25,450 nucleotides of DNA from a virus. The stretch spans positions 664-26,113 of IMG/VR virus record IMGVR_UViG_3300002460_000145. One strand, written 5' to 3'. The notes beneath the pieces are model-generated. The model made no database searches and was not told where the DNA came from. It saw nothing but the letters and a program-made list of their open reading frames with translations. The position numbers and the translations under genes are program-made. The first letter of the stretch is position 1. Each line of letters opens with the position of its first letter. Of the stretch, positions 1 to 22,850 are shown one piece after another.

Positions 1-1462
1 TCCCATTGCCTTCAGGTGACGCCGCCGGTTCCAGCGTTTTCTCTCCGCCCTTGGGCGTGGGGATGCCAAACGCGTCGCGGACGAACTTCTCCGGGATCTT
101 CATCCCCAGTTTGGTGAAGCGGTCGAGGCCCATGCTGTAGGCGTTGATCAGCGCGGCATCGTATTTGGTGCTCTGAGCCGCCCCCTTCGACTGACCTGGC
201 TCGCCTTCACCTTCACCCTCACTGGCCGCGCCATTGCCTGCGGGAATCGATGCCTTCTTCGTCCAGCCCTCACCGTACTTCGAGCGCAGCGTGTCCTCGT
301 CGAGCTCGTAGCCCATGTCGTGGATGATCTTGTCGGTCTCGGCGACCGACTTGGTGTCTTCTTCTTCCTTCACCTGACGGTACACGGCGCAGGGCTCCAG
401 GCCGTTGAGTTCGCAGATCCACGCGATCAGCGTTTCGTTGAGCGTTTCGCTCAGCAGATCGCTGTCGGCCTGGGTCAGGTCCTGGCGCACGTTCTGCCGC
501 TCTTTTGATGCAGCTGCGAGCGCGCCGCCACCGGAGCCCGAGGGCTCCTGGCCGGTCAGCACCTCGGCGATCCATTCGTCCATGTAGCGCACGAGCTGCT
601 CTTGCGTGGTCACGTTGCCGGCCAGCTTGCTCTCTAGCAGCGCGATCTCCATGCCCTCGGGCGTGGCCAGGTAGCCGTCATTGCTCATGGCGCGCAGCGC
701 GTCCACCAGGGTGGCCTTTTCCTTCGGGCTCGCGTTGCGCGGGTATTTGCCGTGCGGCGTGGGCGAGCCGAAGCGGTCGTTGAGCTTGTTCCAGGCCACG
801 ATGCCCTTGCGCTTGAAGAACACCGGCCAGTACAGCTGCAGGCCCAGGCCCGTGCCATAGGGGTTGTCGTCTTCCTGGTTGACGCGGTGGACGATGAACT
901 TTCGCTCCGGTACCGGGATGCCCTTTTGCATGGCCTCGCGCGTGAGCATCTGCAGGCGGGGCGGGCTGTTCTCGTCGTCTTGCACGTAGACGAAGCGTTT
1001 CTGCGCGCGCTTGGGCACCCGCACCGGAGCCACCAGGTTGTTGCGAATCGTCCAGACGATCTCGGCGATCGCGTGGCCGGCCAGCAGCGCCTCCTGCATG
1101 TCGGAGCACAGCCGGTCGAACGCGAAGCCCTTCAGGATCTCGGTCAGTGTGAGCGCGTCGGCGCTGGCCTTGGCCGAGTTCTTCTCGCGCGGCTCCACCT
1201 GCCAGGCCTTGCCCACCAGGGCCAGCTGGCGCTTCTGCAGGCCGCTGAACACCTTGCCGTCACGGCGCAGGTCGCGGTACAGCTCCACGCCACCGTTGCC
1301 GCGCTCGATGAGCAGCGGGTCGTTGGTGCGCAGGATGCCCATGTAGGGCGCTTCGAAGGGATCGCGCAGGCGGTTGGCGAACTCGGCGGTGAGTTCGGGT
1401 GCGAGATCGGGTGTGATGCCCGACTTGCTGGCCTCGGCCGGTGGGGTCTTGGGCTTAGCCAT
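1..1462 (-). CDS. Portal protein, Mu gp29-like (DUF935), 3' end outside window
   Basis: This gene encodes the portal, the ring at the capsid vertex through which DNA is packaged. About 487 codons are visible and the reading frame runs off the left edge. The N-terminal part reads as the DUF935 family: after a short leader come RDPFEAPYMGILRTND, then a VELYRDLRRDGKVFSGLQKR stretch and KAWQVEP, the usual order in Mu gp29 relatives. The C-terminal part in view is Gly/Glu-rich and ends in a KTLEPAASPEGNG-like tail, so little may be missing. The ATG at 1462-1460 overlaps the end of the large terminase gene by 8 bases, which fixes the start. It is the last gene seen of the minus-strand lysis and packaging operon. 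In Mu the next gene would be the F/gp30 minor head protein, expected beyond the left edge. Confidence 0.93.
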   Translation of the reverse strand, partial: MAKPKTPPAEASKSGITPDLAPELTAEFANRLRDPFEAPYMGILRTNDPLLIERGNGGVELYRDLRRDGKVFSGLQKRQLALVGKAWQVEPREKNSAKASADALTLTEILKGFAFDRLCSDMQEALLAGHAIAEIVWTIRNNLVAPVRVPKRAQKRFVYVQDDENSPPRLQMLTREAMQKGIPVPERKFIVHRVNQEDDNPYGTGLGLQLYWPVFFKRKGIVAWNKLNDRFGSPTPHGKYPRNASPKEKATLVDALRAMSNDGYLATPEGMEIALLESKLAGNVTTQEQLVRYMDEWIAEVLTGQEPSGSGGGALAAASKERQNVRQDLTQADSDLLSETLNETLIAWICELNGLEPCAVYRQVKEEEDTKSVAETDKIIHDMGYELDEDTLRSKYGEGWTKKASIPAGNGAASEGEGEGEPGQSKGAAQSTKYDAALINAYSMGLDRFTKLGMKIPEKFVRDAFGIPTPKGGEKTLEPAASPEGNG

Positions 1463-3074
1463 GGACGAAATCTCCAAAATTTGAACTGCTCTCGCGCGGG
1501 TCTCCGCTCATAAATTCGATCGGGTAGCTCAGGTGCAAAGATGCAAACCAGCCCAAGGCCAGCATCACAGCGCTATCGCCGTGGCGCTGCAGATCGGGGT
1601 CTTTCAAGTCCGCGCGCCGGAGCTTGTTGATCATGGGAATGCCGTCGATCTCCTCGATTGCGCGCAAGTCCTGATCCATGTTGGCGTCTTGCGGGATGTC
1701 GATCATTCCGTCTTCAAAGCCCTGGATGAACTTGGGCATCCAAGTGCCGTACCAGCCCCGGTTCAACGTGACCTGGTGCACGTGGTCATGCCCGAACTCA
1801 TCAGCGGTTTCTTCCGCGAGTGACTCCCCGCTTCCGGTGGCGTCCATTGCCCCACCGCAGCGCTTAGGCAGCGCCTTGATCGCGTGCCAGGTGATCTGCT
1901 TTTGTTGGGCGTAGGGCACCTTGTGCATCTCGATGGACAGCACACACTGCCGCCGCATCGTTGCCGTGATGGCGTGTCCGCCCCAACTGGAAAAGTCACG
2001 GTGGCGCGCGTAGTCATGCGAGAACACGTGGCGTGTATCGGGGTCCAGCTGGGCCAGCATCGGATCGAGATAGCGCTTGATCCAGTCTTTCACCCATGCC
2101 TCGCGGGACTCGGGTGGGCGCCGCACAAAGTCATCATCCAGCGCCAATCGCAGAACCCGGGTTGCCGGCAGAGACATGGCCTGGTCGATCCAAACGCCAG
2201 GCAGGCAGACGCCATTGCCATCGCGAGGGATCGCGTCCAGCTCCTCGCGCATCGCAGCCTTGCGCACCCCGTAGGCATTGCGGATCTTGGCGTACCACTT
2301 CGCCTTTCCTTCGGCCGTTGGCTTTTCGCCCTTCATCCAGCACACGCGCTCGTATAGGCCGTTGGCCACCGCTGTGTCAAATGTGACCGTGACTACGATG
2401 GCGTCATCACCATAGCGCCCGGCCTCGATGTCTCGGCAGAACTGCGCGAACGGGTTCTTCTTGCCGTTGTGCGAGCTGATGACCGTGATCTGACCGCCCC
2501 AGATCAGCAGAGCGGAGGCCGCGTCCAGCACGTCTTGAACGTTCTGGTGGAAGGCTGCCTCGTCAATGACCACGTGGCCTTGCAGACCTCGGATATTGGC
2601 TGGCCGGCTGGACAGGGCGCAGACCTGAAATCCACTGGCAAAACGGATGCGATAGGCGGTGATGTGGCGCGTTTTTCCGGTCTCAGGGTCCTGGTCTTCA
2701 AACAGGAATTCTTCAATCCCAGAAACCTCGCCCTGCGCCTTCGCGATGGTCCGTGAGAAACGGGCGCAGTAGCCAATGGCCTCAAGGCCTTTTTCCTTCG
2801 TGTCACCGATGTAATAGACGTTGTCGCCACCAGCCTCTTTGCTGGCCGCAGCCACCAGCGTCTTGCGCAACATGACAGCGAAGGTGATCCCAGTGCGTCG
2901 CCCCTTGGGGATCGCGATGATCGACTGCTTCAGCGCCACCACCTGCCGCTGGTGCAGCATCAAAACGCCTTCTGCAACGGGGTTGAAGTTGGCCGGAATC
3001 TCGCGGGCGCGAGGCGGCAGTTCGTCCCACTCGACGATGCGAAGCGTGCTGGCGAGTGGTTTGACGCCGGCCAT
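1455..3074 (-). CDS. Terminase large subunit, Mu gp28-like
   Basis: This is the ATPase-nuclease motor that cuts and pumps phage DNA into the head, 539 aa and close to the family length. Visible motifs are a Walker A-like PKGRRTGIT around residues 56-64 with the atypical Arg-rich loop of Mu gp28 relatives, Walker B VVIDEAAF at 168-175, and a coupling motif TVISSHNGKKNPF at about 197-209. The C-terminal RNase H-like nuclease half shows MDATGSGE at 410-417 and RHGDSAVMLALG at 497-508, carrying the expected acidic residues. The ATG at 3074 overlaps the TGA of the gp27-like gene (ATGA), which indicates translational coupling. Mu-type terminases package by headful from an integrated copy, so host DNA is expected at the ends of packaged genomes. 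Nothing in the frame suggests decay. Confidence 0.95.
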   Translation of the reverse strand: MAGVKPLASTLRIVEWDELPPRAREIPANFNPVAEGVLMLHQRQVVALKQSIIAIPKGRRTGITFAVMLRKTLVAAASKEAGGDNVYYIGDTKEKGLEAIGYCARFSRTIAKAQGEVSGIEEFLFEDQDPETGKTRHITAYRIRFASGFQVCALSSRPANIRGLQGHVVIDEAAFHQNVQDVLDAASALLIWGGQITVISSHNGKKNPFAQFCRDIEAGRYGDDAIVVTVTFDTAVANGLYERVCWMKGEKPTAEGKAKWYAKIRNAYGVRKAAMREELDAIPRDGNGVCLPGVWIDQAMSLPATRVLRLALDDDFVRRPPESREAWVKDWIKRYLDPMLAQLDPDTRHVFSHDYARHRDFSSWGGHAITATMRRQCVLSIEMHKVPYAQQKQITWHAIKALPKRCGGAMDATGSGESLAEETADEFGHDHVHQVTLNRGWYGTWMPKFIQGFEDGMIDIPQDANMDQDLRAIEEIDGIPMINKLRRADLKDPDLQRHGDSAVMLALGWFASLHLSYPIEFMSGDPRESSSNFGDFVHG

Positions 3075-3619
3075 CAGCGAACACCGAGGAAGTCTTTGAT
3101 CCAGAAGTCCAATTGATCCTGGCTCATGCCCTGGGTCTTGGCGATCTTCTGCAGGTTGGCTTGCTGCTCTTCCAGCAGCTTGCGGCGCGCAGCCGCTTCG
3201 ACGGCCTCGCGCTCTTTGAGGCTCATGGTGCGGGCCTGCATCGCGGCGCGTGCGGCGCGGGCCAGCTCGGAAACCTCCTTGATCGAGATCTTGTCGTCGT
3301 TGTGCGCGTTCAGCGCCGCGTTCGTGGCCAGCGTGGTCACGGCCTGGGTCAGCAGCGCACCGGCCTTGTCGCCCATGCCTTCGCCGAGTTCGTCCACCAG
3401 GACGCCGGCCGCTGTCTCGATCTCGCGCATGCGCCCCACCATCTCGCCGAAACCCGCCTTGTAGCGGTGAATGCCCGAGCGGCTCACCTCCTCTTCGGGG
3501 TACTTTTCGCGCACCTTGGCGAGCAGCTCGTCCAGCGTGTGGCGGTCTTCGCGCAGCAGCTTCTCCAGGAACCGGCGCGCGGCCGGGTCCATGCGGGAGA
3601 CGGCAGACTTGCGGCCCAT
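3074..3619 (-). CDS. Terminase small subunit, Mu gp27-like (DUF3486)
   Basis: This 181-aa protein matches the DUF3486/Mu gp27 pattern. It opens with MGRKSAVSRMDP, followed by FLEKLLREDRHTLDELLAKVREKYP and SRSGIHRYKAGFGEM, a helix-turn-helix region expected to recognise the phage packaging site. The C-terminal half is helical and charged (roughly 115-160), ending in DQLDFWIKDFLGVR. The family role is to hand phage DNA to the large terminase. A longer frame extends upstream to 3673, but ATG 3619 is the family start and lies one base from the end of the gp26-like gene, so I chose it. The stop overlaps the large terminase start. Confidence 0.9.
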   Translation of the reverse strand: MGRKSAVSRMDPAARRFLEKLLREDRHTLDELLAKVREKYPEEEVSRSGIHRYKAGFGEMVGRMREIETAAGVLVDELGEGMGDKAGALLTQAVTTLATNAALNAHNDDKISIKEVSELARAARAAMQARTMSLKEREAVEAAARRKLLEEQQANLQKIAKTQGMSQDQLDFWIKDFLGVR

Positions 3620-3620
3620 C

Positions 3621-3911
3621 TCAGGCCCCCGGGCGCTTGACGCCAGGCACCACCGCGCGGCCCGCGGCCACATCGGCGCCGCGGGTGGTAAGGGTGGCGA
3701 TGTGCACGCTCTCGACTGCCTCCACCGTGACGAGTCCCTGCTCCTGCAACCAAGCCAGGTCGCCCTTGATCTGGTCGGTGCTGGGCTCGTGGCCGAAGCG
3801 CGACAGCAGGGTATGCAGCAGGAACGAATTCGTGCGGTAGGCCGGCAGATCGGACAGCACGCGCAGGATCACCAGGCGGCGGTCTTCGGTGAGGAAGTTG
3901 GCGAAGCTCAT
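3621..3911 (-). CDS. Mu gp26-like small winged-helix protein
   Basis: This 96-aa protein sits just before the gp27-like gene, where Mu carries gp26. The body reads as a winged helix: LTEDRRLVILRVLSDLPAYRTNSFLLHTLLSRFG, then TDQIKGDLAWLQEQGLV with a basic turn and a short beta-like tail VHIATLTTRGADVAAGR. Members of this phage family are conserved next to small terminases, but their function is not established. A packaging or DNA-binding role is inferred from position only. The ATG at 3911 overlaps the stop of the preceding gene (ATGA) and defines the start. Confidence 0.8.
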   Translation of the reverse strand: MSFANFLTEDRRLVILRVLSDLPAYRTNSFLLHTLLSRFGHEPSTDQIKGDLAWLQEQGLVTVEAVESVHIATLTTRGADVAAGRAVVPGVKRPGA

Positions 3912-4210
3912 TTTTGGTTCAGCAAAAAGCTCTCGACACGGTCCACGCTGCGCGTCAGCGGCTCGATGCGCGCGGCCACCGACTCGATGCCGCCGGCCAC
4001 GCGCTCGACCTTGGTCACCAGGTCGTGCAGCTGCTGCTGGCTCGGCACCTGGTCCATCTGCGCCTCCAGCGTCGTGATGCGGATGCGCAGCTCCATCATT
4101 TCTTGCGCGCTCGCCGACTGGCGGCCGATGATCCAGGCGTAGATACCGATCGCGGTGACCACGATCCATTGCATGGCTTGGAAAGAAAAACTCATGTCGG
4201 TCAAGTTCAT
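3908..4210 (-). CDS. Mu gp25-like membrane protein (DUF2730)
   Basis: This 100-aa protein has one N-terminal transmembrane segment (about residues 10-28, QAMQWIVVTAIGIYAWIIG) followed by a long amphipathic coiled coil with regular hydrophobic spacing (about 38-95, including ELRIRITTLEAQMD and VERVAGGIESVAARIEPL). This is the DUF2730 layout found in Mu gp25 and relatives. The function is unknown; a membrane-tethered coiled coil next to the lysis genes could help lysis or head assembly, which is inference. ATG 4210 overlaps the TGA of the zinc-finger gene, so the longer frame to 4273 is not needed. Confidence 0.82.
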   Translation of the reverse strand: MNLTDMSFSFQAMQWIVVTAIGIYAWIIGRQSASAQEMMELRIRITTLEAQMDQVPSQQQLHDLVTKVERVAGGIESVAARIEPLTRSVDRVESFLLNQK

Positions 4211-4452
4211 CGGGCTCTCGCTCCCTTGGTGGTTTTCTCGTGGCGCTCCTGACACGCCACGCAGTACTGACAACCCGGCACCGCCACCCGGCGCGCCTTG
4301 GGTATGGGCTGATCGCAGCCCGGTGCTTCACAGAACTCGGCCGAGTCGGCCACTGTCTTGCCCTGCAGCCCGGCGCGGAGCGCCTGGTCTCGCAGCGCAT
4401 CGGCGCGCATCTCGGCTTCGCGCTCGCTGGCGCGGTCGATGTCATCGGTCAA
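4207..4452 (-). CDS. TraR/DksA-type C4 zinc finger protein
   Basis: This 81-aa protein has an acidic, helical N-terminus (DDIDRASEREAEMRADALRDQAL) and a zinc finger with cysteines near residues 41, 46, 61 and 64 (FCEAPGCDQPIPKARR, then PGCQYCVACQERHE). That is the TraR/DksA layout; TraR-like proteins bind the RNA polymerase secondary channel and modulate promoters without DNA binding. Mu-like phages commonly carry one between the lysis and terminase genes. Here it may tune host or late phage transcription, an inference. Its start and stop both overlap neighbours by ATGA. Confidence 0.87.
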   Translation of the reverse strand: MTDDIDRASEREAEMRADALRDQALRAGLQGKTVADSAEFCEAPGCDQPIPKARRVAVPGCQYCVACQERHEKTTKGARAR

Positions 4453-4991
4453 TCGGCTGGCTCCGCTGGTGGCTGCTGCGCGTGCCAGTCGATCAGGGCG
4501 TTGAGCCGCTCGCGGCAGGTCTCGTGCTGCTGGCCGACGGCGACGGCCCAGGTGCCGATGTCGGTATCGGTGGCAGTGGCCCCACCTTCTGCAGCAGCTC
4601 CGGGCCCGGCCGCGGGCAGGCCGCCAGGGGCGGCGACGCTGAGACCCGGGGCGGTGTTGAGCACGCGCAGAGCGCGATCAGACAGGCAAGCGCGGCCAGC
4701 GGTCGAAGCTTTGATGGCATGGGTTTTCTCCTGGGCAAGGGTGGCGTTTGTGGCGACCTGGCGCAGCAGCTGGACGCCGAGCGCCTGGCTGCGGTCGGTG
4801 GCTTCTTGCAGGCGGGCAGCGCTGGCGATCGCGGCCTTGCGCAGCGTCTCTGCGTTGTCTTCCCGCAGACCTGCGTTTTCCATACGCAGATCGGCGATGT
4901 CGCCCTGCAGCGGGGCGCGGGCCAGTGGCCAAGTAGCTCCTGCCGCGATGGCTCCGGCCAGCAGGTAGGGGATGAGGCTGAGCCAGCTCAT
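4449..4991 (-). CDS. Rz: Rz-like inner-membrane spanin
   Basis: This 180-aa protein has one N-terminal membrane anchor (about residues 4-22, LSLIPYLLAGAIAAGATWP) and a periplasmic coiled coil (about 30-95, LRMENAGLREDNAETLRKA and following). The tail is low-complexity and rich in Ala, Gly and Pro, ending with a short helix. This is the inner-membrane spanin topology. Spanins join inner and outer membranes and fuse them in the last step of lysis of Gram-negative hosts. The strongest support is the nested Rz1-like lipoprotein gene in another frame. The long Ala/Pro tail covers the nested gene and probably reflects the dual coding. ATG 4991 overlaps the holin-like stop. Confidence 0.88.
   Translation of the reverse strand: MSWLSLIPYLLAGAIAAGATWPLARAPLQGDIADLRMENAGLREDNAETLRKAAIASAARLQEATDRSQALGVQLLRQVATNATLAQEKTHAIKASTAGRACLSDRALRVLNTAPGLSVAAPGGLPAAGPGAAAEGGATATDTDIGTWAVAVGQQHETCRERLNALIDWHAQQPPAEPAD
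4493..4720 (-). CDS. Rz1: Rz1-like outer-membrane spanin lipoprotein, nested in Rz
   Basis: This 75-aa lipoprotein is encoded wholly inside Rz in a different frame. It has a basic start (MPSKLRP), a hydrophobic core (LAALACLIAL) and a lipobox L-C-A-C with the lipidated cysteine at about residue 20. The short mature part is proline-rich (STPPRVSASPP, VGPLPPIP), as in lambda Rz1. ATG 4720 is preceded by AGGAG with 7 bases of spacing, so it is a better start than the TTG at 4738. The product would be sorted to the outer membrane and meet the Rz coiled coil across the periplasm. Confidence 0.87.
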   Translation of the reverse strand: MPSKLRPLAALACLIALCACSTPPRVSASPPLAACPRPGPELLQKVGPLPPIPTSAPGPSPSASSTRPAASGSTP

Positions 4992-5206
4992 GATTGGCTC
5001 CGGTCCAGATCAGGCTGGTCGAGCACACGCAAGACGATGATGGCCAGCGCCAGGCCACCCGACACCCAGGGCCACTTGTCCGCGGGCACCAGGGGCTGCA
5101 CCAGGGGCAGCACATCGGCCTGAATGCCGGACAGCACAGACAGCAGTACGGCCGCCTGCACAGACAGGAACCGCCAGGCCAGGCGGTAGTCGGGGATGAG
5201 CTTCAT
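4988..5206 (-). CDS. Putative holin / small lysis membrane protein
   Basis: This 72-aa protein has two hydrophobic segments (about residues 14-34, VQAAVLLSVLSGIQADVLPL, and 46-62, WVSGGLALAIIVLRVL) separated by a Pro-rich turn. It ends in a charged DQPDLDRSQS tail. Size, topology and position between the endolysin and the spanins fit a holin, which would release or activate the endolysin. It resembles small phage membrane proteins found in this position in other transposable phages, but I cannot name the holin class. ATG 5206 overlaps the endolysin TGA, and its TGA overlaps the Rz start, so the gene is coupled on both sides. Confidence 0.75.
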   Translation of the reverse strand: MKLIPDYRLAWRFLSVQAAVLLSVLSGIQADVLPLVQPLVPADKWPWVSGGLALAIIVLRVLDQPDLDRSQS

Positions 5207-5679
5207 ACGATGCCTCGCAGATACTGCGTGGGCATACCGCCACGGAAGCGCGCCGTGAGGCACTCGCGCCGGGGAATCTGCCCGGCCTCGGGTATGGCCA
5301 CGTGCACCCAGGTGCCTTCGAAGATCACCTGGTCAAACTGCAGGCCGCTGTCTCGGATGGCCTCGGCGATGGCTTTGGGCCGGCCATACTTCGGCGCGAT
5401 GAGGTCGGCCGCCAGGCCCTTGGTGTGGGCCGACGGGTAGGCGCCGCCCACCAGGTTGTTCACGGCCGGGCTGCGGTAGCCCGAGCTGACCAGGATCGGC
5501 GAGTTGAACAACAGGCCCCGGACCTGTTCCAGGAACAGGGCCAGACGCGCGAGATTGTCCAGCGCGGTGCCGACGGGCCGGTTGCTGAGACCAGCGCGGT
5601 CAGCGGCTTGGCTGACCGTCAACTCCGCGAGCGAGAAGTTGGGGCTGAGACGGTGTTCGAGGTGGTTGGACTGCGACAT
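5203..5679 (-). CDS. M15-family peptidase endolysin (D-Ala-D-Ala carboxypeptidase-like)
   Basis: This 158-aa protein has the zinc-peptidase pattern of family M15: SSGYRSPAVNNLVGG followed by SAHTKGLAADL, with His85 and Asp92, and a later WVHVAI with His126, giving the three metal ligands. Such phage enzymes cut peptide cross-links in peptidoglycan. No signal peptide is visible, so export would depend on the holin. It is the first gene of the minus-strand lysis and packaging operon. ATG 5679 has no Shine-Dalgarno; a GTG at 5688 is an alternative, but the ATG is at the same distance (44.5 bp) from the upstream dyad as in the head protease gene. I therefore prefer ATG 5679 and a leaderless message. 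Confidence 0.92.
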   Translation of the reverse strand: MSQSNHLEHRLSPNFSLAELTVSQAADRAGLSNRPVGTALDNLARLALFLEQVRGLLFNSPILVSSGYRSPAVNNLVGGAYPSAHTKGLAADLIAPKYGRPKAIAEAIRDSGLQFDQVIFEGTWVHVAIPEAGQIPRRECLTARFRGGMPTQYLRGIV

Positions 5680-5766
5680 GCACGGCACTGTGCCGCGCGC
5701 GCGCGAGGCCCGCTAAATGGCGCACGTCATTGTTTTCCGTGGGCCCTGGGCAGCGATCATCGGGGC
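5680..5766. promoter_or_regulatory. Divergent late control region with Mor-type dyad
   Basis: An imperfect 16-bp dyad AATGGCGCACGTCATT lies at 5716-5731 (centre 5723.5), with arms AATG/CATT and CG/CG matching. It is 44.5 bp from the endolysin ATG on the minus strand and 43.5 bp from the ATG at 5767 on the plus strand. On the minus side CACAGT stands just before the ATG (ACAGTG starts 12 bases upstream). On the plus side GATCAT occupies -12 to -7. Neither side has a canonical -35 or a Shine-Dalgarno. Mu Mor binds an imperfect dyad centred near -43.5, so a Mor-type activator site driving two leaderless transcripts is inferred. A short palindrome, CGGCAC-T-GTGCCG, lies at 5683-5695. Confidence 0.6.
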
Positions 5767-6105
5767 ATGAACACCCCTCATGAAGACCCCGGAACCTGGA
5801 CCCGGCGCATGCTCCAGGACCACCAGCGCGCGTTCACCGTGCCAGCCGTGCAGGCCGCGCCTGCGCCGGCAACGTTTGAGGAAGACGCCCGCCAGATGCT
5901 GGCCGACTGGTACCGCGTCATCCGCAGGAAATTTGCCGACGCGCCGCACGAGCCCACCGATTTTGGAAAGCGCTTCATCGAGAACGGCGCCGTGTGCATG
6001 TGGAACTGCGCACAGGACCTGGAGCGGCTGCTAGAGCGGCAGGCCGGGCAGGCCCCGCGTGATCTCGGCCTTGAGGTAGTCCAGCAAGACCCCAAAGGTC
6101 CATGA
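5767..6105 (+). CDS. Hypothetical late-type protein, 112 aa
   Basis: I do not recognise this protein. It has a disordered Pro/Ala-rich N-terminus (NTPHEDPGTW, VPAVQAAPAPATFEED) and a helical core (ADWYRVIRRKFADAP, then NGAVCMWNCAQDLERLLERQAG) with conserved-looking Trp and Cys residues. The frame is open further upstream to 5302, but that part runs antisense to the endolysin. ATG 5767 is the first sensible start and lies 43.5 bp from the dyad in the divergent control region. It is the only plus-strand gene between two minus-strand operons, and its last 75 bases overlap the end of the DUF2513-like gene tail to tail. An amino-acid-like composition and a matching promoter argue that it is real. 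Confidence 0.6.
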   Translation: MNTPHEDPGTWTRRMLQDHQRAFTVPAVQAAPAPATFEEDARQMLADWYRVIRRKFADAPHEPTDFGKRFIENGAVCMWNCAQDLERLLERQAGQAPRDLGLEVVQQDPKGP

Positions 6106-8814: not shown

Positions 8815-9125
8815 GCCGCGCCACCGACTACACCAATCAGGCGCAGCAGCGCCTGATGAAGGTGGTGATCGCGCTGTTCGGCGACGTGATCCACGGCTAC
8901 CCGCCGGCCGCGCTGGCCAGAGCGGTGGAATGCTCGCAGAGCGTGATCACCAGCGACCTGGACAACCTGCTGACCGCCGGTTGGGTGGAGCGCGACGAGG
9001 GCACCGGCCACTGGCGCCTGACGCCCCGCCTGCCGCAGCAGGCCATCAAGGTTTTCAACGCCCTCGACGCCGCCCAGCGCCGCGTGGACGAAGCCCGCAA
9101 CCGTTTTACGAGGGAGCCCGTCTGA
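8811..9125 (+). CDS. Winged-helix (IclR/MarR-like HTH) early protein
   Basis: This 104-aa protein reads as a winged helix. A helical N-terminus (NQAQQRLMKVVIALFGDVI) leads to an HTH (ALARAVECSQSVITSDLDNLLTAGWVER), and the wing is DEGTGHWRLTPRLPQQAI. Similar small DNA-binding proteins sit upstream of transposase genes in other transposable phages. It may regulate the early operon or assist transposition, but its target is unknown. It is coupled by ATGA to the preceding gene and by TGATG to the next. Confidence 0.78.
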   Translation: MSRATDYTNQAQQRLMKVVIALFGDVIHGYPPAALARAVECSQSVITSDLDNLLTAGWVERDEGTGHWRLTPRLPQQAIKVFNALDAAQRRVDEARNRFTREPV

Positions 9126-9328
9126 TGCCTGAAATGCACTCAGTCGTGATCGCGATGAAAGGGCAATCGCAATGCAGGGTGATCGTGCCGAGCTTCGAGC
9201 CGGCTGGCGATGACGTGGTCGCTGAATCCTTGCAACTTCTTCGTGACCTCGCCAACTGCTCGGACAGCGAGCTCATTGCCTCAATTCACCAAACCCACAA
9301 CGTCACAGACGTGGAGATCCAGAAATGA
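9125..9328 (+). CDS. Hypothetical early protein, 67 aa
   Basis: Unrecognised 67-aa protein. It has a beta-like N-terminus (HSVVIAMKGQSQCRVIVPSFEP), an acidic helix (DVVAESLQLLRDLANCSDSELIAS) and a short tail. ATG 9125 shares a base with the preceding stop. From here to about 9760 the DNA is clearly less GC-rich and uses rarer third-position A/T codons than its surroundings. Confidence 0.68.
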   Translation: MPEMHSVVIAMKGQSQCRVIVPSFEPAGDDVVAESLQLLRDLANCSDSELIASIHQTHNVTDVEIQK

Positions 9329-10275
9329 CAAAGACAGGCCGTATCGCAAAAACCACTGTGGTCGCACAGGAGCCCCGTGTGGATGAAGACAAGCTCGGGA
9401 CAGCCATGGTTGCCATGCGCGACCAGGCGCAGGAAGGCCTCGCCGAACTTTGCGAACTTGCCGGCGACGTGCGAGGCATCCAAATTGCCGACATCACTGT
9501 CAATTTCCTCGCCGCGGCGAGGATTAGATTGTTTGAGCGAGTGCGTGAATCCAAAAGAATCAAAGACTTACCGCTACGCGATGCCGCTGGGAACCTCGCC
9601 ACGGCGAGGAATTTGGAAGAGTTCTGCCCGCTTGTGTTCGGCCGCAGTTATCAAAAAATGGTTGAGGAGTCGAGCAACCTTGAGGCCTTGGGTGAGTTGG
9701 CTTACGAGCAAGCAAGCCGTCTCGGTTTGAACCGCTCTTCCTTGCGGGCGGCCCGCGCGTTGCCGCCGGAGAAGTTGGAGCTTGTGCGCGTCGCCATCAG
9801 CAGCGGCAGCACCAAGGGGGAAATCCTCTCGGTCATCGAAGACCTGGCAGAGAAGGTCGAGACAGCCGAAAAGCAGGTGGTCGAACTGCAGGCCGAAAAG
9901 GAAGCCGCCGACCATCTGGTGGAAGCCAAGAACAAGACCATCGACAAGCTGCAGCGCGAGGTCAAGCGCTTCGAGAAGCTGCCGCCAGACGAGAAGCTGG
10001 AAGCCCTGCTGAAGGACTGCACCGACGCCATGAACGACGCCCGCGGCTCTGTGCTGGGCCGGATGCGCCTGGCCTTCGTGGCGGTGGCGAATGCTGGCGA
10101 CGACCGCCACGCGCATGACATGTTCCTGGCGGGGTTGGTGGGCCAACTCCAGGCCGAACTCAACGAGTTGCGGGATGAGTTCAATTTGGTGGTGGTGGGA
10201 GGCGAGCCGGAGTGGGAGCGCTGGGCCAAGGCCCAGGAACTTGCCAAGACGGGCAAACAGGCCAAGGCGAACTGA
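9325..10275 (+). CDS. Early coiled-coil protein upstream of the transposase, unknown function
   Basis: This 316-aa protein has three visible parts. The N-terminal third (about 15-105) is helical and carries two similar NFLAAAR / NLATAR segments encoded by near-identical palindromes. The middle (about 105-165) has an HTH-like stretch (YEQASRLGLNRSSLRAARAL) followed by PPEKLELVRVAISSGSTKGEI. A long coiled coil spans about 168-225 (EKVETAEKQVVELQAEKEAAD). The C-terminal helical domain ends in a lysine-rich tail. The layout suggests an oligomeric DNA-binding protein acting with the transposase, but I do not recognise a family and no Gam signature is seen. Base composition changes from AT-richer to GC-rich near 9760, suggesting a mosaic joint. 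ATG 9325 overlaps the preceding stop. Confidence 0.78.
   Translation: MTKTGRIAKTTVVAQEPRVDEDKLGTAMVAMRDQAQEGLAELCELAGDVRGIQIADITVNFLAAARIRLFERVRESKRIKDLPLRDAAGNLATARNLEEFCPLVFGRSYQKMVEESSNLEALGELAYEQASRLGLNRSSLRAARALPPEKLELVRVAISSGSTKGEILSVIEDLAEKVETAEKQVVELQAEKEAADHLVEAKNKTIDKLQREVKRFEKLPPDEKLEALLKDCTDAMNDARGSVLGRMRLAFVAVANAGDDRHAHDMFLAGLVGQLQAELNELRDEFNLVVVGGEPEWERWAKAQELAKTGKQAKAN
9506..9523. repeat. 18-bp perfect palindrome, copy 1
   Basis: TCCTCGCCGCGGCGAGGA is a perfect 18-bp palindrome inside the coiled-coil gene. A near copy occurs 87 bases (29 codons) downstream. It could be a protein-binding site within the coding region or a by-product of a short amino-acid repeat (FLAAAR). Confidence 0.7.
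9594..9609. repeat. 16-bp palindrome, copy 2
   Basis: CCTCGCCACGGCGAGG differs from the core of the copy at 9507-9522 by one base. It keeps both 7-base arms around an AC centre. It encodes LATAR in the same frame as the LAAAR of the first copy. Confidence 0.7.
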
Positions 10276-10282
10276 ACCCGCC

Positions 10283-12049
10283 ATGGCCCCCGCTCTGAGC
10301 CCCGCCCTGATCGCGGCCTTGCTCGATGTGCAGCGCCGTGCCGCCGAGAGCGGCCACGGTGGCAAGGAAGGCGTTTACGCCGAAGCCTGCCAGCACCTGG
10401 GGCTCAGCCGCGCCACCCTCATGCGCCGCCTGAAGGAAGTCACCGTGAAACCTCAACGCAAGCGCCGGTCTGATGCCGGCAGCTCGGGCCTGTCGCTGGT
10501 CGATGCGCAGCGCCTGAGCGCCCACATGATGGAGGGCTACCGCGCCAACGACAAGTCGATCCAGGCGCTCAAGCTCACGCTGGTGCAGCTGCGGGCGCAC
10601 TTCCCGCTGTTCGCCAGCGCGGTGGATGCCGAGACTGGCGAGACGCGACAGCTCTCCGACTCCGCATGTGCCCGTGCGCTGCGCGCCTACGGCCTGCACC
10701 CCGAGCAGCTGCGCCAGCCCGAGCCGGTGCAGGCCTTGGCCAGCGAGCACCCGAACGACGTGTGGCAGATCGACGCTTCCATCAGCACATTGTTTTATGT
10801 GCCAGAGAGCGGTGGCGCGCAAGACATGGCGCCCGGCGTGTTCTACAAGAACAAGCCCGAGAACTTCGAGAAGATCAAGCGCCAGCGCCTCACGCGCTAC
10901 GTGATCACCGACCACTGCTCGGGCAGCATCTTCGTGATGTACGTGCCCGGTGGCGAGAGCACGGTGAACATGGCCGAGGCCTTCCTGGCGGCGATCGCGC
11001 AGCGCCCCGACCAGCAGATGTATGGCGTGCCCTTCCGCTTGATGATGGACCCGGGCAGCGCAGGCGTGTCGGGCGCGTTTGGCAACCTGTGCCGCCGCCT
11101 GCTGGTCGATCCGATCGTCAACAAGGCCGGCAACGCCCGCGCCAAGGGCCAGGTGGAGAACGCCCACAACATCGTGGAAACCGACTTTGAGAGCGGCTTC
11201 AAGTTCACCCACGTGCCCAGCATTGAGTGGATCAATGAGCGGGCGCAGATGTGGATGCGCTACTACAACAGCGCCCGGTTCCACCGCCGCCACGGTCTGG
11301 CGCGCTGGGCGAAGTGGCTGGAGATCACACAGGCCCAGCTGCGCCTGGTGGATGCCACGCTGGCCCGCCAGCTGCTCACCCACGCCCCCGAGACGCCCAA
11401 GGTGGACCGCGAGCTGTGCGTGCGCTTTGCTGGCCGGGTGTGGAGCGTGCGCGATGTGGCGGGCGTGATGGTGGGCGAGAAGGTCACCATTACCCACAAC
11501 CCGTTTGACCAGGCAGCGGCCTTCCTGGTGCAGCACGATGCCGAAGGCCAGGAGGTGTTGATCCCCGTGCCCGAGGCCAAGCTGGGCGCCCACGGCTTCC
11601 GCGACAGCGCGGCGCTGATCGGCCGGGAAATGAAGTCGCTGCCGGACACGGTGGCCAGCACCAACCGCAAGCTGGTGGAGCGCCTGGCCACCGGCACAGA
11701 CACCGACGAAGCCGCCGCCGCTGCGCGCAAGGCCAAGGCGCTGCCCTTTGGCGGTGCGATTGACCCCTACGCGCACCACGAGCCGGCGTTGCCCGCCGCC
11801 ACGGTGTTGCCGCGCCGCGGCACCGAGCTGGACACCGCCACCCGCGTGGCGCAGGCCGAGCCGAAGCTGCTCACCCACTTCAAGGCCGCCCAGGCGCTGG
11901 TCGGTCTCGGCGTGGCGATGTCGCCCGAGCTGATCGGAACGCTCAAGAACCTGCACCCCGAGGGTGTGCCGGAAGACCAGCTGACCGACCTGGCGGCGCG
12001 CCTCACGGTGCGCGCCGGTCTGCGTGTGGTGGGAGGGAGCAAGCAATGA
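10283..12049 (+). CDS. DDE transposase, Mu A-like (BcepMu-type), rve superfamily
   Basis: This 588-aa protein catalyses integration and replicative transposition of the phage. An N-terminal HTH (about 30-55, VYAEACQHLGLSRATLMRRL) should bind the phage ends. The RNase H-like core has WQIDAS with Asp164, MMDPGSAG with Asp256 and KGQVENAHN with Glu292. The last two are separated by 35 residues, the D-D-35-E spacing of retroviral and IS3-type enzymes. A beta-rich Mu-transposase C-terminal domain follows (RVWSVRDVAGVMVGEKVTI). The C-terminal tail is helical and probably contacts the ATPase encoded next. ATG 10283 is the first start after the upstream stop; the frame continues back to 10091 but overlaps the preceding gene in poor sequence. 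Its stop overlaps the ATPase start (ATGA). Confidence 0.95.
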   Translation: MAPALSPALIAALLDVQRRAAESGHGGKEGVYAEACQHLGLSRATLMRRLKEVTVKPQRKRRSDAGSSGLSLVDAQRLSAHMMEGYRANDKSIQALKLTLVQLRAHFPLFASAVDAETGETRQLSDSACARALRAYGLHPEQLRQPEPVQALASEHPNDVWQIDASISTLFYVPESGGAQDMAPGVFYKNKPENFEKIKRQRLTRYVITDHCSGSIFVMYVPGGESTVNMAEAFLAAIAQRPDQQMYGVPFRLMMDPGSAGVSGAFGNLCRRLLVDPIVNKAGNARAKGQVENAHNIVETDFESGFKFTHVPSIEWINERAQMWMRYYNSARFHRRHGLARWAKWLEITQAQLRLVDATLARQLLTHAPETPKVDRELCVRFAGRVWSVRDVAGVMVGEKVTITHNPFDQAAAFLVQHDAEGQEVLIPVPEAKLGAHGFRDSAALIGREMKSLPDTVASTNRKLVERLATGTDTDEAAAAARKAKALPFGGAIDPYAHHEPALPAATVLPRRGTELDTATRVAQAEPKLLTHFKAAQALVGLGVAMSPELIGTLKNLHPEGVPEDQLTDLAARLTVRAGLRVVGGSKQ

Positions 12050-13266
12050 CGGCCGCCACCCACACCCTGCAGCCGGTGCTGGCCGAGCACGGCATCCCCC
12101 AGTCTGACCTGGTGCGTGCGCTGGGCTTGTCCAGGTCGGCGGTGTGCCGCCTGGTCACCCACGGCCAGCTGCCCGCGCGCCGCGCCGCCGAGGTGCGCAA
12201 GCGCGCGGTGGATTACCTGAAGTCGCGGGGGGTGTCCATCGCCGCCCTGCGCAGCCTGGTGCTGCCCTCTGTGGCGGCGCCCAAAGAAGTTGGCCCCGAC
12301 GTGGTGGAACACGCCGAGGCCGCCCCCCGAGCCCTGGAACCAACCGAAACCCTGGAGGAATTGCAGATGTTACTGAAGAACGAGACATTGACGCCGCTGG
12401 CGCGCAAGCACTTTGCGTTGGCGCGCAGTCCATTCGTGGACGACATCAACGGCCGCGAAGACGTGTTCGCCAGCAAACACGGCCGCTACGTGCGCGCCGC
12501 CATGCTGGACGCGGCCACCGCCCACGGCTTCATTGCCATCATCGGCCAGAGCGGCAGCGGCAAGAGCACGCTGCGCGAAGAGCTGGAAGAGCGCATCCGC
12601 GAGGAGCGCCGGCCCATCGTGCTGATCAAGCCCTACATCAACGGCGTGGAGCCCAGCGAGGCGCGCGGCAAGCCGCTGCGCAGCGGGCACATTGCCGAGG
12701 CCATCGTGGACGCCCTGGCGCCCGGCGTGTCGCTCAAGAGCAGCCCGCAGGCCCGCTACAAGCAAGTGCACGACCTGCTCAAGGGCAGCCGCACCGCGGG
12801 CTACACCCACCTGCTGGTGATCGAGGAGGCGCACCGTCTGCCGGTCCCCACGTTGAAGCACCTGAAAAACTTCATGGAGATGAAGGACGGTCTGCGCCGG
12901 TTGCTGGGTGTGTGCCTGATCGGACAGAACGAGCTGGCCGACCTGCTCTCGGAGCGCAATCCCGAGGTGCGCGAGATCGTGCAGCGCTGCGAGCAGATCA
13001 CCATGGAGCCGCTGGACAACGACGTGGAGGCCTACCTCCAGCTCAAGTTCGAGCGCGTGGGCGCGAAGTGGTCCGACGTGTTCGAGGCCGACGCCATGGA
13101 CGCCATACGCGCCCGCCTGATCCAGGCCGCGCACGGCCGCCGCACGAACGAGGTGGTGTCCATCTGCTACCCGCTGGTGGTGAACAACATGGTGTGCCGC
13201 GCGCTGAATGCGGCGGCAGCGGTGGGCTACCCGAAGGTGGACGCCCAAGTGATCGCGGGGTGCTGA
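12046..13266 (+). CDS. AAA+ transposition ATPase, Mu B-like
   Basis: This 406-aa protein is the partner ATPase that binds target DNA and activates the transposase, as Mu B does. An N-terminal HTH (about 18-45, QSDLVRALGLSRSAVCRLV) and a linker (70-105) precede the AAA+ core. Walker A is GQSGSGKS (167-174), Walker B is LLVIEEAH (256-263), a sensor-like LIGQNE is at 291-296 and Arg314 is a possible finger. The family also resembles ExeA/TniB ATPases. An internal ATG at 12367 (Met108) has GGAGG 8 bases upstream, a much better site than the main start. A second product of about 299 aa without the HTH is therefore possible. Confidence 0.94.
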   Translation: MTAATHTLQPVLAEHGIPQSDLVRALGLSRSAVCRLVTHGQLPARRAAEVRKRAVDYLKSRGVSIAALRSLVLPSVAAPKEVGPDVVEHAEAAPRALEPTETLEELQMLLKNETLTPLARKHFALARSPFVDDINGREDVFASKHGRYVRAAMLDAATAHGFIAIIGQSGSGKSTLREELEERIREERRPIVLIKPYINGVEPSEARGKPLRSGHIAEAIVDALAPGVSLKSSPQARYKQVHDLLKGSRTAGYTHLLVIEEAHRLPVPTLKHLKNFMEMKDGLRRLLGVCLIGQNELADLLSERNPEVREIVQRCEQITMEPLDNDVEAYLQLKFERVGAKWSDVFEADAMDAIRARLIQAAHGRRTNEVVSICYPLVVNNMVCRALNAAAAVGYPKVDAQVIAGC

Positions 13267-13269
13267 GCC

Positions 13270-13428
13270 ATGAACATCTTCCGCATCCAGGTCTCTTTGC
13301 CTGACCAACCGCGCTTCGCGTTCGTGGGCCTGTTCAAGGACGGCTTCGAGGCCGCGTTTCAGGTGCAGGCCGACTACCCCGAAGCCATCGGCATTTCGGT
13401 CATCCATATCACCGGAGCCACGAAATGA
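13270..13428 (+). CDS. Small hypothetical protein, 52 aa
   Basis: This short 52-aa frame starts three bases after the ATPase stop and its TGA overlaps the next ATG. The sequence MNIFRIQVSLPDQPRFAFVG and the rest (FKDGFEAAFQVQADYPEAIG, then SVIHITGATK) look like a small alpha/beta protein. Close packing and coupling on the 3' side support it as a real gene. Function unknown. Confidence 0.66.
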   Translation: MNIFRIQVSLPDQPRFAFVGLFKDGFEAAFQVQADYPEAIGISVIHITGATK

Positions 13429-13661
13429 ACTGCTGCAACGAAAAGGGCGAATGCCGCAATGGCCCTGGCTGCGCGGCTCGCTCCAGCGCTCAGCCCATCG
13501 TGTTCGCGCCCGGCGTGATCGAGGTGCACCGGGTGGGGCTGCTGGGCTCGCCCGCCCAGCGCCGCGAGCTGCTGCGCCTTGCCAAGGCCTCGGCCTGGTG
13601 GCTCACCTGGTGCGGCCTGGCCGGGCTGGCGGCGGGGTTGATCGTGGGAGCGCCGCTGTGA
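13425..13661 (+). CDS. Small Cys-rich single-span membrane protein
   Basis: This 78-aa protein has a Cys-rich N-terminus (MNCCNEKGECRNGPGC), a middle basic helix (SPAQRRELLRLAKA) and a C-terminal membrane segment (WWLTWCGLAGLAAGLIVGA). The cysteines could bind metal. It is coupled to both neighbours (ATGA and GTGA). I do not recognise the family; a membrane-anchored accessory protein is all the sequence supports. Confidence 0.7.
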   Translation: MNCCNEKGECRNGPGCAARSSAQPIVFAPGVIEVHRVGLLGSPAQRRELLRLAKASAWWLTWCGLAGLAAGLIVGAPL

Positions 13662-14281
13662 GCAAGACGCCCGAACTCATTGCCTGCCCGGCCTGCGGCA
13701 CCGAGCTGAGCCTGGAGCACCTGGTGGGCCACCTGGACGACGAACAGGCGTTCTCGCGCCTGGTGGCGCTCAGCGTGCCCATGGCGCACCTGGTGGTGCT
13801 CTACATCGGGCTGTTCACGCCCGAGAAACAGCGCCTGACGCTGCGCAAGAAGGTGCGGCTGATTGCCCAGCTGCTGCCCGACCTGCGCCGCCAGGCGATC
13901 ACACACCGGGGCCGCGACTGGCCCGCGCCACACGCCACCTGGGCCGCGGCCATCGAACAGATGCTCGCCGCCCGCACGGCCGGCCGGCTGGACCTGCCCA
14001 TGACCGGCCACGGCTACTTGTACGCCATCTTGGCCGGCATGGCCGACAAGGTGGAGGCGCAGGCCGAGCGCGAGCACGAAGCCGAGCGCCGCACCGGGCC
14101 GCGGCAAGACACGGTGCAGGTGCGCGGCCAGGCGCTGCCGATCGGCGAGGCCCTGCAGGTGGCCTACGGCGGCAAAGACCCGGCCCTGGCCCGGCTGGAG
14201 GCCGACAGCAAGACCGCGGCACCCATGCCCGCCAGCGTGCGCGAGCGCCTGGCTCAACTCAAAGGAGGGAAATCGTCATGA
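13658..14281 (+). CDS. Hypothetical early protein with N-terminal zinc-knuckle motif
   Basis: This 207-aa protein starts at GTG 13658, which overlaps the preceding TGA; the frame extends back to 13451 in poor sequence. The N-terminus has a CPACG pair (about residues 10-14) followed by HLVGHL, a possible treble-clef-like zinc site. A helical body follows (FSRLVALSVPMAHLVVLYIG, FTPEKQRLTLRKKVRLIAQL, ATWAAAIEQMLAARTAG), then a basic tail. Similar proteins occur in early regions of BcepMu-type phages, but the function is not known. A DNA-linked role is plausible given the operon. Confidence 0.78.
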   Translation: MSKTPELIACPACGTELSLEHLVGHLDDEQAFSRLVALSVPMAHLVVLYIGLFTPEKQRLTLRKKVRLIAQLLPDLRRQAITHRGRDWPAPHATWAAAIEQMLAARTAGRLDLPMTGHGYLYAILAGMADKVEAQAEREHEAERRTGPRQDTVQVRGQALPIGEALQVAYGGKDPALARLEADSKTAAPMPASVRERLAQLKGGKSS

Positions 14282-14571
14282 ACGTCTCTGAGCAAATCAC
14301 CCAGGTGCTGGACTTGACCGACGCGCAACTGCAGCAGCAGGCCGATGTCGCCCGCCGGCTGCTGCAGATGGCCACCCTGGGAACGCCGCGCATCGCCAGC
14401 GGTGACCCCTTTGCCCCGCAACTGCTGGTGCTGCACGCACTGGCCACGGCCTACCTCGCCCTGGCCACGGCCACGCCCGGCGTTACCCGCGCGGCATCCA
14501 ACGTGGCTTTCGACATCGGCCACGACCTGCGCCGTGCGGCCGATCGCTGCGCCAAAGCCAACCCCAACTGA
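14278..14571 (+). CDS. Hypothetical helical early protein, 97 aa
   Basis: Unrecognised 97-aa protein. It is almost all helical: LDLTDAQLQQQADVARRLLQ, then LLVLHALATAYLALATATPG and a final amphipathic helix (VAFDIGHDLRRAADRCAKA). The middle helix is hydrophobic but short and Ala-rich, so it is more likely buried than membrane-spanning. It overlaps the preceding gene by ATGA and is followed by a 14-base gap holding the Shine-Dalgarno of the next gene. Confidence 0.7.
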   Translation: MNVSEQITQVLDLTDAQLQQQADVARRLLQMATLGTPRIASGDPFAPQLLVLHALATAYLALATATPGVTRAASNVAFDIGHDLRRAADRCAKANPN

Positions 14572-14585
14572 ACACAGGAGCCACC

Positions 14586-15209
14586 ATGGCAAACGACAAA
14601 CCGACCATCCCAGCCGGCTACTGGCAAGACGCCAGCGGCAACCTCATCCCCGAATCCAAGGTGAAGGACATCGACAAGCTGCGCCACCAGGTGGTGGTGG
14701 ATCTGTGCACGATGGCCGAGACCCACCAGGCCAACCTGAAGAAGTTCAAGTTGGACGCCATGCAGGAAGTGGCCGCTCTGGTGGCCACCAGCCTGGAGCA
14801 ATACGGCGTGCGGTCGGGCGGCGAGAAGGGCAACGTCACGCTGACCAGCTTCGACGGCCGCTACAAGCTGGTGCGTTCGATGCAAGACAAGATCACCTTC
14901 GGCGAGCAGCTCATGGCCGCCAAGGCGTTGATCGACGAGTGCGTGCACGTGTGGTCCCAGGGCGCCGACGACAACATCAAGGCGCTGGTGAACCATGCCT
15001 TCCAGACCGACAAGGAAGGCAAGATCAACACCGGCCGTGTGCTGGGCCTGCGCCGCCTGGACATCCGCGATACGAAGTGGCAGAGCGCCATGCAGGCCAT
15101 TGCCGACAGCATGCAGGCGGCCAGCACCAAGCCATACGTGCGCTTCTACAAGCGCAACGAGTCCACCGGCGGGTATGACGCCATCAGCTTGGATGTGGCG
15201 GCTGTATGA
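14586..15209 (+). CDS. DUF3164 family protein
   Basis: This 207-aa protein fits DUF3164, common in early regions of transposable phages. It opens PAGYWQDASGNLIPESKVKD and continues with HQVVVDLCTMAETHQANLKK. A central SFDGRYKLVRSMQDKITFGE and a C-terminal DIRDTKWQSAMQAIADSM region follow, ending KPYVRFYKRNESTGGYDAI. No enzyme motif is visible and the family role is unknown. CAGGAG lies 6 bases upstream of ATG 14586, one of the better ribosome sites in the operon, which suggests strong expression. Confidence 0.88.
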   Translation: MANDKPTIPAGYWQDASGNLIPESKVKDIDKLRHQVVVDLCTMAETHQANLKKFKLDAMQEVAALVATSLEQYGVRSGGEKGNVTLTSFDGRYKLVRSMQDKITFGEQLMAAKALIDECVHVWSQGADDNIKALVNHAFQTDKEGKINTGRVLGLRRLDIRDTKWQSAMQAIADSMQAASTKPYVRFYKRNESTGGYDAISLDVAAV

Positions 15210-15436
15210 GCAACACCACCCCCATCATCGAAGCCGGCCGCTCCGGCTCAGGGCGTGTGACCGCCACCTTCGTCCAGAACCTCAAGCGCAAGGCCAAGAC
15301 CGTCGGCCGCAGCCCTGGCGTTTCGTATGCCAAGGCGCTGGACATGGTGGCCGTCGAAGCCGGGTTCCATCACTGGCACGACGTGGCGGAGCAGCACAAG
15401 GTTTGTCTGCAGGCGCGGGACGGGAGCACCGCATGA
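15206..15436 (+). CDS. Small hypothetical protein with glyoxalase-associated-like motif
   Basis: This 76-aa protein contains FVQNLKRKAKTVGRSPGVSY followed by AKALDMVAVEAGFHHWHDV. This resembles the short helical module (alternating lysine helix, then LDxxAxxxGFxxWHxx) seen in some proteins annotated as glyoxalase-related and in small phage proteins. No catalytic role is suggested. It may bind nucleic acid through the basic helix. It overlaps both neighbours by ATGA. The family call is tentative. Confidence 0.66.
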   Translation: MSNTTPIIEAGRSGSGRVTATFVQNLKRKAKTVGRSPGVSYAKALDMVAVEAGFHHWHDVAEQHKVCLQARDGSTA

Positions 15437-16155
15437 CCAAGTCCAGAGGCATCCTTCAGGCGCGTGAGTTCTGGCCACCGCACCACATCGAGATCCTGGG
15501 CCGCTTCTACGCCGACCTCCGGACCCAGGACATCGCCGATCTGCTGGGGAAAAGCATCTCTCGGGTCTACGCCAAGGCCAACGAGCTGGGCCTGAAGAAG
15601 AGCGCTGCATACCAGGCCAGTGTGCACAGCGGCCGGGTGCAGCGTGGGCAGCAAGACCCGCGCATGCTCGGTACGAGATTCCAAAAGGGTCTTGTGCCCT
15701 GGAACAAAGGCCTCAAGGGCCTGAGCTACGAGGGCGGCAAGGCGACCAGATTCAAGAAGGGTGAGTTGAACGGCACCGCGAAGCTCCTCTACGTGCCGAT
15801 CGGCAGCTATCGCATCAGCGCCGATGGCCACCTGGAACAAAAGCTGACCGATGACCCAGCCATCGCGCCGGCGCGCCGGTGGACGCCCGTTTCCCGGCTG
15901 GTGTGGGAGCGAGACAACGGGCCGATCCCAGCCGGGCACATCGTTGTTTTCAAGCGCGGTCAGAAGACGGCCGTGCTCGACCTCATCACTGTGGACCGTC
16001 TGGACTGCATCACCCGCGCCGAGAACGTGCGCCGCAACCACTGGACCAATCTCCACCCCGAGCTGGCCGCTGTCGTGCCGCTCAAGGCGGCGATCACGCG
16101 CCAGGTCAACCGTATCAACCGCGCGGCCCGAGAGGCCGAGGAGTCACGAGCATGA
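15433..16155 (+). CDS. HNH-type endonuclease-like protein with N-terminal HTH
   Basis: This 240-aa protein has an N-terminal HTH (LGRFYADLRTQDIADLLGKS, then VYAKANELGLKKS), a basic linker with KGLVPWNKGLKGLSYEGGK and a C-terminal HNH_3-like module: PVSRLVWERDNGPIPAGHIV, VFKRGQKTAVLDLI, then LDCITRAENVRRNHW. The layout matches phage HNH proteins found in early operons of transposable phages. The usual first His (HRLVW) is Ser here and the DH pair before the metal loop is replaced by VVFK, so catalysis is doubtful. It could be a DNA-binding relic of a nuclease. ATG 15433 overlaps the preceding stop. Confidence 0.82.
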   Translation: MTKSRGILQAREFWPPHHIEILGRFYADLRTQDIADLLGKSISRVYAKANELGLKKSAAYQASVHSGRVQRGQQDPRMLGTRFQKGLVPWNKGLKGLSYEGGKATRFKKGELNGTAKLLYVPIGSYRISADGHLEQKLTDDPAIAPARRWTPVSRLVWERDNGPIPAGHIVVFKRGQKTAVLDLITVDRLDCITRAENVRRNHWTNLHPELAAVVPLKAAITRQVNRINRAAREAEESRA

Positions 16156-16490: not shown

Positions 16491-16492
16491 CC

Positions 16493-18912: not shown

Positions 18913-18924
18913 GCTTTCCCCCGG

Positions 18925-18943
18925 GCCGCCTGCAACGGGCGGC
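18925..18943 (+). other. Hairpin after mor, possible weak terminator
   Basis: GCCGCC and GGCGGC flank a 7-base loop (TGCAACG) a few bases after the mor stop. There is no T tract, so it is not a standard intrinsic terminator. It may still slow read-through from the early operon into the late head operon. Confidence 0.4.
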
Positions 18944-18950
18944 TCTCAGA

Positions 18951-20046: not shown

Positions 20047-20083
20047 CCCACTCAACACCTCCACCTCCGAAGGACGAATCACC

Positions 20084-21049: not shown

Positions 21050-21064
21050 CAACCCACCAAGGTG

Positions 21065-21113: not shown

Positions 21114-21142
21114 TATCCGAAACCAAAAAAGGAACTTTCCCA

Positions 21143-21427: not shown

Positions 21428-21459
21428 CCCCCCAACACCCCTGACCAGGAGAGACCCCC

Positions 21460-22838: not shown

Positions 22839-22850
22839 GGACCGAGCACC

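Follow-up and report, generated by a model that had tools for sequence, protein, structure and literature searches.

In phage Mu, the middle promoter Pm is activated by Mor, which binds as a dimer to 5-bp inverted repeats in a 16-bp element at -51 to -36, the repeats being separated by a G/C-rich 6-bp spacer (PMC4390567, PMC4287176). A -10 element is present at Pm and a -35 element is not, and an A/T-rich αCTD site lies upstream (PMC4390567, PMC4287176). At the Mu promoter Pmom there are two divergent promoters, and the C protein shifts polymerase from momP2 to momP1 instead of firing both (PMC4287176). In phage T4, a stem in the long early RNA of gene e cuts lysozyme synthesis about 100-fold, and the late RNA lacks the 5′ arm of this stem (PMC3014915).

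The DNA analysed here (the window) is a stretch of 25,450 nucleotides contained in a 26-kb virus fragment from IMG/VR. The element at 5716-5731 is predicted to be a Mor-type site common to two divergent promoters, one of which faces the lysis operon, where holin-like and Rz-like genes lie downstream of the endolysin. The features of this region are the following:

5716-5731, no strand assigned: activator dyad AATGG-CGCACG-TCATT, with 5-bp inverted repeats and a G+C-rich 6-bp spacer
5686-5691, minus strand: -10 hexamer CACAGT of the lysis promoter, with A at -12 and T at -8 relative to the ATG
5203-5679, minus strand: endolysin gene (Peptidase_M15_3), first gene of the lysis operon, with a predicted leaderless start at 5679
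5755-5760, plus strand: -10 hexamer GATCAT of the divergent promoter, with A at -11 and T at -7
5767-6105, plus strand: divergent gene of 112 aa, lacking a Shine-Dalgarno sequence, convergent with a DUF2513 gene and overlapping its 3′ end
5680-5698, minus strand: inverted repeat GCGCGGCA-CAG-TGCCGTGC (one G.U pair), with the -10 in and next to the loop and the right arm ending at the base before the ATG
5743-5766, plus strand: GCCCTG / CGGGGC, perhaps a weaker inverted repeat ahead of the ATG at 5767, with one G.U pair and a loop of 12 nt

The site shares with Pm the 16-bp element, the 5-bp repeats, the spacer, the αCTD region, a centre near -43.5 and a -10 without a -35, and a gene of the Mor/C family is present in the same phage. 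The initial annotation had proposed a Mor-like geometry with the dyad near -43.5, and this equals the published geometry of Mor at Pm. Unlike Pm, the site would drive several late operons directly, with an RNA start predicted at the AUG; furthermore, the -10 here is enclosed in a hairpin, and a single site has a gene on each side. The C-activated late promoters of Mu, Plys, PI, PP and Pmom, are alike in having one protein of the Mor/C family, in their related dyads and in their lysis, head and tail operon targets. In contrast with the endolysin gene here, which has no Shine-Dalgarno sequence, the Mu endolysin gene 22 has a Shine-Dalgarno-like leader. The late promoters of this phage would be a new form of Mor/C-dependent promoter.

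The centre of the dyad, at 5723.5, is 44.5 bp from the endolysin ATG (5679-5677, minus strand) and 43.5 bp from the ATG at 5767. The dyad coordinates and spacings of the initial annotation are correct, both hexamers are found where it had placed them, and its observation that Shine-Dalgarno sequences are missing at 5679 and 5767 is borne out. Six of eight half-site positions are symmetric, and four of the five half-site pairs are complementary (outer AATG/CATT; the fifth pair is G/T). Read towards the endolysin, the order is AATGACGTGCGCCATT - 23 nt - CACAGT - GCCGTGC - ATG (5679); read in the plus direction, it is AATGGCGCACGTCATT - 23 nt - GATCAT - CGGGGC - ATG (5767). On the plus side the 23 nt are counted to the G of GATCAT, and placing the -10 by its A and T gives 22 nt and a right arm shorter by one. 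Dyad and hexamer are exactly 23 nt apart both on the lysis side and at a second site described below, the distance being put at 22 nt for the plus side. The -10 hexamers match TATAAT at only three to four of six positions. In many lysis and tail promoters the dyad and the -10 are separated by alternating CG runs ((CG)4-5), for example at 5692-5705 of the window; alternating CG is a type of sequence with supercoil-sensitive structure.

A loose symmetric pattern taken alone is not significant in the window (13 matches against 10.7 expected). The specific dyad motif has one other copy of the exact class there, at the start of the head operon:

18451-18912, plus strand: gene for an activator of the Mor/C family, the predicted regulator, identified by profile matches
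18951-18966, plus strand: second activator dyad, AATGGCGCGCGTCCTT, of a PI-like promoter, a near copy of 5716-5731
18990-18995, plus strand: GACAGT, the -10 hexamer of the PI-like promoter, which forms the loop of GGCCGC-GACAGT-GCGGCC (18984-19001)
19003-20046, plus strand: head-maturation protease gene (gene I-like), first gene of the head operon, with a predicted leaderless start at 19003

The second dyad lies 39 nt past the stop codon of the mor-like gene and 44.5 bp ahead of the ATG at 19003, and its layout is identical to that of the lysis side (16 bp + 23 nt + sACAGT + 7 nt + ATG). Near-identical contigs that reach past the window contain a third copy, 44.5 bp ahead of a small tail gene downstream of the tape-measure region; the lysis and tail sites have the same 26 nt directly in front of the ATG, and the genes differ beyond. 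Neither these two further copies nor the hairpin around each -10 figured in the initial annotation. The genes at 17988-18912 are gemA-like and Mor-like, and the product of 18451-18912 matches the late-activator profile PHROG 532 (E 7e-6) and Pfam Mor (E 2e-4, under the Pfam cut-off). It is the only protein of the Mor/C family found in the 26-kb record, which is a fragment, and it seems to act directly on the late promoters; Mu has separate Mor and C proteins. The lysis genes (window 1-5679) lie to the left of the early region (8930-25450) and run in the opposite direction, in contrast to Mu, where gene 22 follows C.

Viral contigs were searched with proteins and with the pattern to collect the upstream regions of relatives; of the first pattern matches, about half lacked the downstream layout and were set aside. 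Protease starts were assigned by a rule blind to promoter features (the closest ATG in frame that does not lie past the first aligned residue), and after removal of sequences of at least 85% identity the regions upstream of 37 divergent Mu-like, gene I-type proteases were aligned on the ATG without gaps. Conserved blocks appear at -56 to -34 and at -16 to -7, with no conservation between them at -33 to -17. Palindromicity peaks at -10 and at -44.5/-43.5, and conserved A positions at -56 to -52 coincide with the αCTD-bound region of Pm. The dyad sequences fall into several classes, and the place of the dyad is constant. Position -1 is C in 32 promoters and T in five, a pyrimidine in every case. 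An A at -12 with a T at -8, or an A at -11 with a T at -7, together with the pyrimidine at -1, is found in 37/37 protease promoters, a figure to be taken as descriptive because the rule was framed after looking at the data; the same combination occurs in 23/23 other late promoters located through each phage's own dyad, and at 3.2% of ATGs in phage contigs at large. Motifs resembling a Shine-Dalgarno sequence precede none of the 37 protease genes and one of the other 23, compared with 12 of 21 ordinary genes of the window. An alignment across related phages had been named in advance as a test of the proposal, and both the dyad and its spacing are kept in these 37 and 23 promoters.

Of the 37 phages, 24 encode a Mor-like protein on the upstream side of the promoter, at a distance of at most 1.6 kb. 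Distances between Mor proteins and between dyads are correlated (r 0.62), and the partial Mantel correlation with protease divergence removed is 0.48, a value reached in 0/5000 permutations; by this measure, dyad divergence tracks Mor divergence beyond shared ancestry. In the phage collection there was no DNA relative of this phage and no tblastn match to its Mor-like protein, nor did a scan of genome contigs match the latter. The promoter pattern did match in genome contigs, in unrelated phyla only, and these matches were taken as chance.

If the hexamer is read as a -10, RNA synthesis would begin at the A of the ATG or at the preceding base. The invariant pyrimidine in front of the A agrees with the start that RNA polymerase usually prefers. 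Two further observations support the ATG as the true start codon. The tail-gene protein has the same initial methionine in relatives without the promoter (L143-L146), whose ATG is identified as the gene start by other evidence, and in L032 the ATG of the promoter opens a lysozyme with an N-terminal stretch resembling a signal anchor. At this and every comparable late promoter of the relatives, RNA appears to start exactly at the first codon. The conserved layout, and a geometry equal to that of the footprinted Mor site, point to Mor-type late promoters with an RNA start most likely at the AUG, and for the identity of the regulator and the leaderless start taken together the support from the comparison is good enough to make both highly probable. 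A literature search that had most subscription journals outside its reach gave no paper describing leaderless late genes for phages of the Mu type.

In the late promoters compared, the -10 is located within or beside the loop of an inverted repeat, and the right arm of this repeat extends to the base preceding the ATG. The sequences of the arms vary: the repeat is GTCGCAAG-AAA-CTTGCGAC-ATG in L085, CCACGC-GAGCAATCT-GCGTGG in L089, ACCGCAC-GACA-GTGCGGT in L068 and GCACGGCA-AAG-TGCCGTGC-ATG in G014. Right arms pair over 4.86 bp with their own left regions and over 3.96 bp with those of other phages (permuted arms, 0/10000), and own-arm pairing is likewise found at the other late promoters (permutation, p = 0.002); these p-values are not exact, since related sequences share ancestry. 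This covarying hairpin, with the -10 in its loop and its right arm abutting the AUG, is new here. On the plus side of the lysis site, a stem of the length seen at 5743-5766 is common by chance.

With an RNA start at the AUG, the hairpin would be present in read-through RNA only. T4 gene e is alike in that a late promoter is nested in a hairpin before a lysis gene and the late RNA lacks the 5′ arm of the stem (PMC3014915). It differs in having a Shine-Dalgarno sequence, a leader and gp55, whereas the genes here have no Shine-Dalgarno sequence and a predicted start at the AUG itself; compared with a lock of the gene e type, the hairpin here covaries but abuts the AUG and does not contain it. By analogy, it may prevent the lysis and head genes from being expressed too early. 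A role at the RNA level is favoured over a cruciform in the DNA at the -10, because the loops are variable and G.U pairs are frequent in the hairpins of lysis promoters.

The initial annotation had further proposed that the lysis site could be read in both directions. Both sides have ATGs, -10 hexamers and coding ORFs, and the same holds for one other phage; the proposal does not extend to most relatives, in which the lysis dyad is one-sided. ORF 5767-6105 has a coding signal of 0.405 bits/codon ahead of the DUF2513 overlap, the other five frames being below zero; only 0.2% of wrong-frame segments score as high, and the same frame upstream of 5767 has no coding signal. Matches of its protein to DUF4942 (E 0.01) and phrog_35734 (E 0.002) are below threshold, and no close relative was found outside identical contigs. 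In the independent phage G014 (contig IMGVR_UViG_2710723518_000021), ATGs lie 44.5 bp from the dyad on both sides with a conforming -10, a holin-like gene (Holin_2-3) being on the near side and a 102-aa ORF with a coding signal of 0.451 bits/codon on the far side. The divergent ORF of either phage is flanked by the lysis operon and by a convergent DUF2513 gene, and overlaps the 3′ end of the latter. The two divergent proteins give no BLAST alignment with each other, although they look similar at the C-terminal end, where they are antisense to the DUF2513 gene.

A scan for the two-sided pattern returned 20 loci, and conforming promoters with ORFs on both sides were found only in the window phage and G014. 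The other loci were ATGs inside mor, coincidences in coding sequence, or doubtful candidates such as L225 (an 18-aa ORF) and L233 (a shifted hexamer). No conforming far side is present in at least seven relatives (L003, L031, L032, G006, G015, G016 and G019); the first four have, on that side, the 3′ end of a gene that runs in the same direction, which accounts for their one-sidedness. At 5716-5731, a real gene and a conforming promoter are present on each side. The two-sidedness of G014 and the coding signal in both divergent ORFs make bidirectional use of the lysis site in this phage likely, provided that the rest of the interpretation is right. On the plus side the upstream A tract is poorer and the hairpin unconvincing, and for these reasons this promoter is likely to be the weaker one. 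A two-way reading does not imply that two polymerases bind to one dimer at the same time.

The one-sided dyads of these seven relatives, the better A tract and hairpin of the lysis side, and a plus-side protein without a close relative outside identical contigs would all fit a Mor-type leaderless promoter that serves just the lysis operon; on the plus side, ATG and hexamer would then be coincidental, and the gene at 5767 would be transcribed from elsewhere or be a decaying accessory gene. By a rule framed after seeing the data, however, chance would supply a far side with a correctly spaced ATG, a pyrimidine at -1, a conforming -10 and an ORF of 100 aa or more at about 4e-4 per dyad, and yet two phages have one. 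The coding signal of both divergent ORFs begins near the ATG, and the 87 bp between the two ATGs leave little room for another promoter, so that one-way use appears unlikely, with a chance of roughly one in five.

It is also conceivable that RNA starts upstream, near the dyad, and that the hairpin is a structure of the 5′ leader that presents the AUG, the hexamer being its loop and not a -10. The hairpins do covary, abut the AUG and tolerate G.U pairs as RNA does, and a T-rich TTTAG follows some dyads. This motif is missing in several phages, however, and the spacing from dyad to hexamer is fixed while the left arm of the hairpin moves. A pyrimidine at -1 in 60/60 promoters fits an initiator Y(-1)A(+1), and the geometry equals that of Pm, whose start is mapped; an upstream start is accordingly given a very low probability. 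That the dyad is an operator for a repressor is barely credible: the site is palindromic and upstream of lysis genes, as an operator might be, but no -35-like sequence is apparent that would make an activator unnecessary, at three late operons the dyad stands where a -35 region would be, and it tracks the Mor protein across phages.

The explanation preferred as a whole, that of Mor-type leaderless late promoters that are nested in hairpins and used in two directions at the lysis site, is considered probable. The Mor/C-family activator (18451-18912) would bind 5716-5731, replace the -35 element and recruit host sigma-70 RNA polymerase, directing it to a weak -10; this lies exactly 23 nt past the dyad, or 22 nt in the plus direction. 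RNA synthesis would begin at the A of the ATG, or at most 1 nt earlier, and yield a leaderless mRNA. The same element would drive the lysis operon on the minus strand, the head operon at 19003 and the tail operon outside the window. At the lysis site, the dyad would most likely also drive the divergent gene 5767-6105, which is probably fired more weakly than the lysis operon or alternately with it, because the A-rich αCTD flank is better on the lysis side. We infer that the hairpin, carried at each strong late promoter by read-through RNA only, would keep late start codons silent in early or middle read-through RNA. The site, its spacing, the lack of Shine-Dalgarno sequences, the covariation of hairpin arms and of dyad with Mor, and a second two-sided phage come directly from the comparison; the contact of protein with DNA, the start nucleotide, two-way firing and the role of the hairpin are deduced from these. 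Extended to a Mu-like clade, the suggestion of a leaderless, double-locked late programme, with a late activator of the Mor type, AUG starts, silencing hairpins and, in two phages, a two-way lysis site, is tentative and has somewhat less than an even chance of being correct.

If this picture is true, widespread Mu-like phages would constitute a compact natural system of activator-dependent leaderless lysis and structural genes, in hosts whose strongly expressed genes would not be expected to be translated from leaderless messages. The late-gene lock would be set by the RNA start site, extending the principle of T4 gene e to an unrelated group of phages without Shine-Dalgarno sequences. The two-sided site would, in addition, allow the choice of one activator dimer between two divergent polymerases to be tested.

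Two related arrangements were seen in other phages. In Pseudomonas phage JBD18 (L243, about 1160-1179), the start of the protease gene has a similar repeat, GCCGCC-TCACTCTG-GGCGGC-ATG, and no Shine-Dalgarno sequence, which suggests that the late-promoter layout may extend to B3-like Pseudomonas phages. In L031 (6270-6385, minus strand) and L181 (6560-6684, minus strand), a conserved leader peptide of 20 codons, M..P.TQ.SAP.AHWGLYGT, begins at the ATG of the late lysis promoter, and its stop codon overlaps the start of the lysozyme gene (TATGGCACATGA); this overlap suggests a coupled upstream ORF.
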